The notes below the pieces were generated by a model. That model saw nothing but the letters and a program-made list of their open reading frames with translations, did no database searches and was not told the origin of the DNA. Made by a program: the position numbers and the translations under genes. 64,000 nt of DNA from Dromaius novaehollandiae. Lineage: Eukaryota; Chordata; Aves; Casuariiformes; Dromaiidae. This document shows positions 8,046 through 60,819 of the stretch, in pieces. How positions within the stretch are numbered: the stretch's first letter is position 1; each line of letters starts with the position of its first letter. Location of the stretch: contig NC_088102.1 of NCBI RefSeq assembly GCF_036370855.1, positions 41,701,835 through 41,765,834 on the forward strand, in the 5' to 3' direction.

Positions 8046-8312
8046 CTAGCTAGCTGCAGGGATAGCTTTTCTTGTAACATTGTTTTTGCCACAGTTTGTG
8101 TTTGAAACATCTGTGTTGGGGTCACTCATGCCTGAGACAGTGGAGATCTGGTTGGCTTTGCCAAGGTTCTTAATGATATTGATGTTGTATTTGGCAGTTT
8201 CCACAAAGCTGTTTTCTAGTAACCAACCATCTGATTCACCCTCTGGATCTCCTAGCAGGAGAACGTTCTTCATTGCTGTTTGTAGGTACCGGACACCAAT
8301 AAGGACAGAGAG
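8046..8312 (-). CDS. PRPH2L: PRPH2L coding exon 3: C-terminal end of peripherin-2-like tetraspanin
   Basis: The acceptor is TTTTCTTACAG (AG at 8314-8313) and the exon opens in phase 0 with LSVLIGVRYLQTAMKN, finishing the fourth transmembrane segment that exon 2 started. The stop is TAG at 8048-8046. The exon adds residues 277-364. It carries the family's C-terminal signature (GDPEGESDGWLLENSFVET), followed by an amphipathic stretch (YNINIIKNLGKANQ) that aligns with the human PRPH2 region linked to membrane curvature and calmodulin binding. The last 35 or so residues, rich in Ser, Asn and Thr, are not like human PRPH2. The predicted protein is 364 residues against 346 in human PRPH2. The cytosolic tail of this family acts in disc-rim shaping and outer-segment targeting. 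Confidence 0.95.
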   Translation of the reverse strand, partial: LSVLIGVRYLQTAMKNVLLLGDPEGESDGWLLENSFVETAKYNINIIKNLGKANQISTVSGMSDPNTDVSNTNCGKNNVTRKAIPAAS

Positions 8313-9766
8313 CTGTAAGAAAAGGTTAATGGTTAAACAGAGAGTTTAAATTACAGTCTCAGTCCTACCACTAAGTCTGGTTTCTGACTTCTTTATTGAC
8401 AGGCCTAATAACCAATATTGAGTAAAGCAGACAAACTCTTCATCCCAACAATATATCCACCCAGACTTCCAATAAATTAAATGTTTCAGAAAGAAAAATA
8501 CCACAGAGAGATTGTTTGATTATCTCTCCATTCCTCAGGTAACATTCCCACTTGCATGTCCTTAGAGCATAAATACACAGAATTACTAGGGAACATTGCA
8601 GCCTCAGAGGCTACAACTAATTGATGCAGAATTGATGATTAATTAATGGAGACATCAGCCATTGAAGAAAAAATCCTAGTCTGTTAACTTGCATGGCATT
8701 TTTTCAGCTGACCCTGATTAAATCAGAATTAAGCCATCTATGTCCTACATACCTATGCACAAAAAGGAAAGAAGAAGGCCCAAGTCTAAGCTTAGGAAAA
8801 AGCCACACCTTTATAGTCCTCCTGGGATCTAGATCAGGGCCCTCACCTGATCAGCATTTAAGGAAGCAAAGAGAACAGGCTCATAGATTTCTCATAAAGC
8901 TGCCTAAGGCCTATTGCTTCTGGCACCACTGCCTGTGTAGCACTGCCTGGAGACTGTTGTGATGAAATATTTTATATATAGTGATAATATTTATGTAGTA
9001 GAGCAATAATCAGAAAAACAAAACAATTGCTAACGAAGGAAGAAAACTGCATTTTAACACATGCAATTGGAGTCCTTTACATGTAGATCAAATGAGCCAG
9101 GCAGCCTTCTTTACAGACTCCGGTAGAAAGAGTGCATCTTTGCACGTGTATACGCCTACCTGTGATGTGCTTATTTTGATTGCATAATAAGCAATCTAGT
9201 CTACATCTAAAAATGTATTCTATTCTTGCAAGTACTGTCTATATGGTAAAGCTATGTATCTAAAAGGAGATTTTGAGATGTTAATATTTATGCTCAATTT
9301 TTACAATAAATAAAATTAATGTATTCAGCCAAAGGCCTGCCTCACTTTTTTGATATTCTTTGTTAAAACTGACTTAAACCAATCCTTATACCTTCTCACC
9401 TTATTTTCTTGCAGTTGTGTCACTGCATGTATCATCCTGTGTCTGGTCCTGCAAATGCTTCAAGTTAAGGAATATGCCATTATCTACTGAAAAAGCTCTG
9501 TAAGTATACTGAATTAATATACATAATTTCTAATAGATATCCTCTTCAGTGAGATTTGCATCTGCTCTGGGGACTTTGAGAAAGCTGTCTGTACTAAAGA
9601 AAACCCTGCAACAATCTTTGAAGTGTTTGTGGACTTATATTCAGGGTATTACATACTGAGGTATTTCTTGCACTTCTCACACATTACACCACAGTTATTT
9701 TCCATCCTAGAGAGCACAAAGTCTCTCATAAAATAATCTGTCACAGAGCATTTTTATGATACTTAC
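8313..9766 (-). other. PRPH2L: PRPH2L intron 2
   Basis: 1454 nt between a GTAAGT donor (9766-9761) and a TTCTTACAG acceptor, phase 0. A 89-codon plus-strand ORF at 8693-8962 is present but has no recognisable motif. I saw no repeat family or RNA gene in the intron. Confidence 0.9.
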
Positions 9767-10013
9767 CTCAAACAACCAGATAAGCAATGCTGCAATACCA
9801 ATGGATCGCATAATAGCCATGTAGTAATCCAGCAGGGCTGTTCTGCACCCCTTCACCCAGATATTCAGCTCCTCTGACAGAAAATCATAATTGTAGTGAG
9901 CGCTGTTGTTTGTAAGCTGGTACTGGATACAGGGCCGTGGGGAATTTGGATTGCAGCAGCTGAATGGTACTCCATCCACCAAGAACTTTCCATCAACGTT
10001 ACTCTTCAGACGG
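9767..10013 (-). CDS. PRPH2L: PRPH2L coding exon 2: second half of the large extracellular loop and TM4 start
   Basis: Exon of 247 nt, matching my recollection of human PRPH2 exon 2 in length and phase. The acceptor TTGTTGCAG (AG at 10015-10014) is followed by a C that completes the split GA|C codon for Asp194. The donor is GAG|GTAAGT at 9766. The peptide runs [20 protein letters not shown]. Cysteines fall at 213, 214, 222 and 250, the positions of the conserved D2-loop disulfides of peripherin-2. The NNS glycosylation sequon is at Asn229, as in human PRPH2; human ROM1 is generally described as unglycosylated. The exon ends in the hydrophobic run [13 protein letters not shown] of TM4. The loop drives dimer and higher oligomer assembly at disc rims. 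Confidence 0.97.
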
Positions 10014-60000: not shown

Positions 60001-60659
60001 AATCTGATTTAGAGATGATTACCAAAAGCCCGGAAATTAAAGAATTAAACTGATTAAATTATCCAAGACAAGATTTTTTTTCCTTTTATCTAATTGCACC
60101 CTTACATAAATCAGTGAAATTATACTTTCAGATTTATTTAATGATAAATAATACTAGCTGTAAAATTTGAAATAGTATGCAGTGCAATAAATTAAAATTT
60201 CAACTATGTATTTTTAATTTTCTGACTGAGGTTAATATTTTGAGCCTACTATTATGTATCACTATCAATAATTATTTAATTATTAATTATAAACGTATTA
60301 TTGTTTGGATTTAAAAAATAATCTTATTAAATATTAATTCTCAAATTACTGTAACTCACAATTAAATGTAAACTGCCAGCATATTCTCATTGATAGAGAA
60401 TATTCTGAATTTTTTTTTATTCATTAGTATTATTTTGAGGTTGGATCCATTGGTTTGAGATAGAGCAGGTTAAAAAAAAGGGAAAAGATGCTTGGATTTT
60501 TTTTCTGTACATTATAGAAATGTTTTAATTGGAAGTTGTTTGGCTGTAATTCCAGCATGAGCCATTATGGAATTCTGCTAAGAAAGAAACACCACTGTTT
60601 GTGTAGGGCATGTCGCTGTGTTGATCACTGAGGTCTGAGGTTCTGCTCTGTGTCTGCAG
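57091..60659. other. intronic stretch before the TTBK2 coding exon
   Basis: AT-rich (notably 59000-60480) and without recognised repeats or exons. An alternative acceptor for the next exon, TTTTTTTTCTGTACATTATAG (AG at 60516-60517), lies near the right end. Confidence 0.45.
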
Positions 60660-60750
60660 CCCCTGGTTAGATGGAAGCCGCTCCTGGGAGCTGGATGGTT
60701 TGTTCTGACGCAGACTTTGCCTAGCAGCTCCGTCACGCCTGGAAGTTGCA
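60660..60750 (+). other. TTBK2: TTBK2 5' UTR part of exon 2, with a 17-codon uORF
   Basis: The acceptor CTGCTCTGTGTCTGCAG (AG at 60658-60659) opens the exon. The leader contains an ATG at 60671 that starts a closed reading frame of 17 codons ([20 protein letters not shown] at 60722-60724), ending 26 nt before the main ATG. The uORF ATG has T at -3 and G at +4, a modest context, so some scanning past it is expected. The acceptor at 60516-60517 would give a longer leader. Confidence 0.65.
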
Positions 60751-60819
60751 ATGAGTGGAGGAGGGGAGCAGGCAGACATCCTCAGCGTGGGAATCTTGGT
60801 CAAAGAAAGATGGAAGGTG
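60751..60819 (+). CDS. TTBK2: TTBK2 first coding exon: N-terminus of tau tubulin kinase 2
   Basis: The ATG at 60751 (G at -3, A at +4) opens 23 codons: [10 protein letters not shown], then [13 protein letters not shown]. After the final GTG comes a GTGAGT donor at 60820-60825, phase 0. [13 protein letters not shown] is diagnostic for TTBK2 as I know it. TTBK1 has a different stretch (ADILPANYVVKDRWKV), although the Ala at residue 8 here is TTBK1-like where mammalian TTBK2 has Leu. These residues come just before the glycine-rich loop of the CK1-group kinase domain. TTBK2 is a Ser/Thr kinase recruited to the mother centriole distal appendages by CEP164, where it promotes CP110 removal and ciliogenesis; truncations cause spinocerebellar ataxia 11 in people. 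No later exon (IGGGGFGEIY block) was found up to 64000. Confidence 0.93.

Follow-up and report, generated by a model that had tools for sequence, protein, structure and literature searches.

A complete peripherin-2-like gene beside TTBK2 in the emu, a likely third ohnologue of the peripherin family

Organization of the locus

The window, that is, the entire 64,000-nucleotide stretch of emu (Dromaius novaehollandiae) DNA analysed here, harbors a complete peripherin gene on the minus strand, hereinafter PRPH2L, and on the plus strand the first coding exon of TTBK2; a CpG island lies between the two.

8046..8312, minus strand: PRPH2L exon 3, 267 nt with the stop codon; encodes the last part of TM4 and the cytoplasmic tail
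9767..10013, minus strand: PRPH2L exon 2, 247 nt; encodes the second part of the large intradiscal loop, with C213, C214, C222, C250 and the N229 motif, and the beginning of TM4
14739..15319, minus strand: PRPH2L coding exon 1 (ATG at 15319), 581 nt; encodes TM1-3 and the beginning of the large intradiscal loop
15456..15461, minus strand: TATAAA, candidate promoter, 142 bases upstream of the PRPH2L ATG
31251..32750, no strand: CpG island, CpG-rich bins with GC 0.58-0.87 and CpG observed/expected 0.85-1.14
60751-60819, plus strand: first coding exon (coding part) of TTBK2, ATG at 60751, donor GTGAGT at 60820

The three PRPH2L exons (15319-14739, 10013-9767 and 8312-8046) join into 1095 nt that encode 364 amino acids, with all 364 codons open and a single, terminal stop. 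Both introns begin with GTAAGT and end in GCAG and ACAG, respectively, and are thus canonical. In Pfam, the product matches the Tetraspanin family (PF00335, E 4.7e-34); among PDB sequences, it has four distinct matches at E ≤0.001, namely, Peripherin-2 (7zw1_A, E 8.4e-142), ROM1 (7zw1_B, E 6.2e-67) and, more weakly, Tetraspanin-15 (E 1.2e-06) and Tetraspanin-7 (E 6.8e-06). The match to 7zw1_A is gap-free over residues 2-334, so that chance is excluded and the fold is settled by sequence. The sequence-only reading of this DNA had called a complete peripherin-2-like gene on the minus strand, and the three exons, the splice sites and the strength of the best PDB match bear this out.

Peripherins are photoreceptor disc-rim proteins. 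We classify PRPH2L as a peripherin (RDS) tetraspanin by its tetraspanin fold combined with Cys150 and the six-cysteine loop pattern CCG...PXXCC...C...GC, which is given in the available excerpts of Huang et al. 2010 (PMC2965184); the pattern is present as CCG at 165-167, PFSCC at 210-214, C222 and GC at 249-250, and the additional cysteine is C150.

The region upstream of PRPH2L offers few regulatory clues. The TATAAA element is a weak promoter candidate because two copies occur in 1 kb where mononucleotide shuffles predict 0.9. The same kilobase contains one CRX/OTX-type site (TAATC[CT]) against 1.7 expected, and therefore the promoter lends no support to photoreceptor expression. MEF2-like, NRL-like and reverse CCAAT patterns are each matched once; these matches have no control and are not used as evidence. 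Scans of the window for tRNAs and Rfam families came up empty.

The TTBK2 side

By its sequence, the exon at 60751-60819 is that of TTBK2 and not of TTBK1: it matches TTBK2 chains in the PDB with E 1.5e-08 and TTBK1 chains with E 1.9e-05, and its distinguishing residues are of the TTBK2 type, whereas TTBK1 reads PANYVVKDRW at those positions. An acceptor-like CTGCAG near this exon ends at 60659. When the whole TTBK2 kinase domain was used as a probe, the first exon was found in the window and all other matches had E 0.15 or worse; a lone exon is expected if the next one lies beyond base 64000. The proposal, made from the letters alone, that TTBK2 adjoins the peripherin gene on the plus strand thus proved correct. 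The proposed distance of about 16 kb to a CpG island also held, the island lying between PRPH2L and the TTBK2 exon, 15.9 kb from the PRPH2L ATG (15319). The further claim that TTBK2 starts there is judged by position rather than by a 5' UTR exon: the island is probably the TTBK2 promoter, in which case TTBK2 intron 1 would be about 28 kb long.

In human, PRPH2, UBR2 and TTBK1 are clustered at 6p21.1, UBR1 and TTBK2 are neighbours at 15q15 with no peripherin gene known between them, and ROM1 is located on chromosome 11. UBR1, which the sequence-only reading proposed to look for on the left side of the locus, may sit to the left of base 1 of the window. The C-terminal ends of the human UBR1 and UBR2 proteins match the window with a best E of 1.2, which is the chance level, and the 11 plus-strand ORFs scanned on this side (of 43 with at least 40 amino acids in 1-8037, by hand count) have no Pfam match. 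At the very edge, positions 10-81 of the plus strand form an exon-like segment of 24 open codons, preceded by ttcctacag and followed by gtgagt, that could belong to a gene left of the window; it has no match in Pfam or among PDB sequences.

A degenerate stretch at 900-1750 reads MGPFLFNIVIYNL and LYKALVSFQY, which by eye we take to resemble the 3' portion of the reverse transcriptase of a CR1-type LINE; one peptide from it has no Pfam match. At 40451-40466, there is a single near-copy, with 2 mismatches, of ATTCTATGATTCTATG, which we take to be a CR1 3' end motif; the signal is weak since 11 of 100 shuffles contain at least one. At 48778-48850, about 73 T form an imperfect run (80% matches) within a strongly T-rich segment, which has an AT skew of -0.235 at 48-49 kb and -0.327 at 49-50 kb.

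Comparison with PRPH2 and ROM1

As references, we used the two 7zw1 chains, presumably the human proteins, with chain A representing PRPH2 and chain B representing ROM1. PRPH2L is identical to PRPH2 at 197 of 333 positions (59.2%) and to ROM1 at 107 of 302 (35.4%), and PRPH2 and ROM1 are identical to each other at 110 of 302 (36.4%); the split time of the copies is not readable from three sequences. Among the 302 sites aligned in all three proteins, 84 are the same throughout and 71 differ throughout; PRPH2L shares 98 with PRPH2 alone and 23 with ROM1 alone, and 26 are common to PRPH2 and ROM1 only. By both the identities and the exclusive sites, PRPH2L is closer to PRPH2 than to ROM1.

The similarity to PRPH2 is unevenly distributed, reaching 71.6% in the large loop compared with 50.4% in residues 1-122 and 46.0% in the tail (285-334). 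All seven loop cysteines (C150, C165, C166, C213, C214, C222 and C250) are kept in PRPH2L, as is the NNS motif at 229. Site 150 is scored as a mismatch because chain 7zw1_A carries S at this position, which we take to be an engineered change, although PRPH2 has Cys150. PRPH2L further agrees with PRPH2 at 30 of 33 positions of disease or structural relevance; the exceptions are, from PRPH2 to PRPH2L, R to K at 46, R to K at 142 and K to V at 193. The loop cysteines also align in ROM1, a member of the same tetraspanin subfamily. According to the available excerpts of PMC7140794, Cys150 is the residue of the intermolecular disulfide, and the loop glycosylation motif is absent from ROM1.

Apart from its place next to TTBK2, PRPH2L differs from PRPH2 at the C-terminus: its last 30 residues extend beyond the 7zw1_A match, and residues 311-326 of the tail are less amphipathic, their moment being 0.449, a value that 4.7% of shuffles reach, compared with 0.560 and 0.2% in PRPH2. 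The lower amphipathicity speaks against a simple equivalence of the two proteins.

Origin of the gene

A third peripherin that survived the early vertebrate genome duplication is already known from the literature. Huang et al. (2010; PMC2965184), in the excerpts available, distinguish three ohnologue lineages, RDS, ROM1 and RDS2, and report that RDS2 was lost in mammals and is found in reptiles, that ROM1 was lost in reptiles, that mammalian ROM1 is fast-evolving and that the RDS family is free of indels. The word 'bird' does not occur in these excerpts; we take birds to be included in 'reptiles' because the groups are mammals, reptiles, amphibians and teleosts, and chicken tetraspanins are counted. 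The available text of PMC6298421 (2018) treats a paralogon attributed to 1R and 2R, for which 15 neighbouring families with three or four members each were selected, the PRPH2 family among them, and states that, from the first paralogon member (human chromosome 11), chicken retains only SPTBN2. In Xenopus, prph2l is annotated besides prph2 and rom1, according to part of PMC10361718. Two papers on fish (PMC6929470, PMC3266365) use 'peripherin-2-like' or a phrase on an outer segment glycoprotein, and PMC9152281 uses 'PRPH2 like'. Like the emu gene, RDS2 and Xenopus prph2l each add a third peripherin to PRPH2 and ROM1; no difference from the emu gene was found in a comparison of the descriptions, which in the excerpted texts (PMC2965184, PMC10361718) give no chromosomal position and no place on the TTBK2 side. 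We infer that RDS2, frog prph2l and the locus described here represent one lineage. Earlier work includes a frog paper by Kedzierski et al. from 1996, and a chick paper from 1998 reportedly deals with two rds homologues. Literature searches for chick peripherin homologues and for UBR1-TTBK2 synteny in chicken found nothing.

We conclude, with a probability of about 0.9, that the gene is PRPH2L, the RDS2 of Huang et al. (2010), that is, the third peripherin ohnologue, kept beside TTBK2 in a non-mammalian vertebrate. This reading is supported by the 59.2% identity to PRPH2, rising to 71.6% in the large loop, against 35.4% to ROM1, by the kept cysteines and N229 motif, by the agreement with PRPH2 at 30 of 33 disease or structural sites, and by the TTBK2 rather than TTBK1 neighbour, along with the published third lineage, its loss in mammals and the frog prph2l. 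A place beside TTBK2 was also what the sequence-only reading had expected of such an ohnologue, and the exon at 60751-60819 puts the gene there. Its claim of an ohnologue lost in mammals agrees with the excerpts of PMC2965184 and PMC6298421, and so stands on print and is not new.

The alternative origin, a duplication of PRPH2 restricted to this lineage whose product came to lie beside TTBK2 by chance, is compatible with PRPH2L being much nearer to PRPH2 than to ROM1 in a comparison with the two 7zw1 chains. Nevertheless, we consider this origin very unlikely. The landing site would have to be, by coincidence, next to the paralogue of TTBK1, a neighbour of PRPH2 in human, and in our judgement a recent copy should be more than 59% identical to the 7zw1 PRPH2; furthermore, a third lineage of old age has been published (PMC2965184, in part) and frogs have a separate prph2l (PMC10361718, in part). 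Still slightly less probable is that the gene is the misnamed ROM1 of the emu. Given the reported loss of ROM1 in reptiles (PMC2965184, excerpts), a divergent copy could be mistaken, and the comparison with ROM1 is not decisive because mammalian ROM1 is itself reported to be fast-evolving in the same excerpts; however, the identity is 35% to the 7zw1 ROM1 versus 59% to PRPH2, and PRPH2L carries the N229 motif that ROM1 lacks. The reduced amphipathicity of the tail could also hint at a decaying or pseudogenised copy, but with 364 of 364 codons open, canonical ends on both introns and seven loop cysteines kept, such decay is hardly credible.

Possible role of PRPH2L

The function of RDS2 was unexplored as of 2010 according to the excerpts of Huang et al. 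(PMC2965184), and the literature matches listed in our search, which most subscription papers fall outside, include no later functional test. The reading frame of PRPH2L is intact, and the protein retains the residues by which PRPH2 assembles. PRPH2L would be expressed in photoreceptors, dimerise via the large loop and Cys150, either with itself or with PRPH2, and help to form and stabilise the curved rims of discs in the outer segment or of lamellae in cones. In species lacking ROM1, PRPH2L may partner PRPH2 in the disc rims or substitute there. A cone-specific role is speculation.

A stronger version is conceivable, in which, in sauropsids, reported to have no ROM1, PRPH2L has become the partner that PRPH2 requires in disc rims and cone lamellae, and its loss in mammals forced ROM1 into that role; we regard it as doubtful. 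Its second half, in the excerpts of Huang et al. (2010; PMC2965184), is a speculation drawn from selection tests.

Mutations of PRPH2 blind people, and knockouts in different vertebrates have different outcomes. Peripherin-2 knockout mice have no outer segments, but prph2 knockout frogs still form them, and prph2l and/or ROM1 have been proposed to support these outer segments (PMC10361718, in part). A further peripherin, lost in mammals, is a candidate reason why prph2 knockout frogs, unlike mice, form outer segments.
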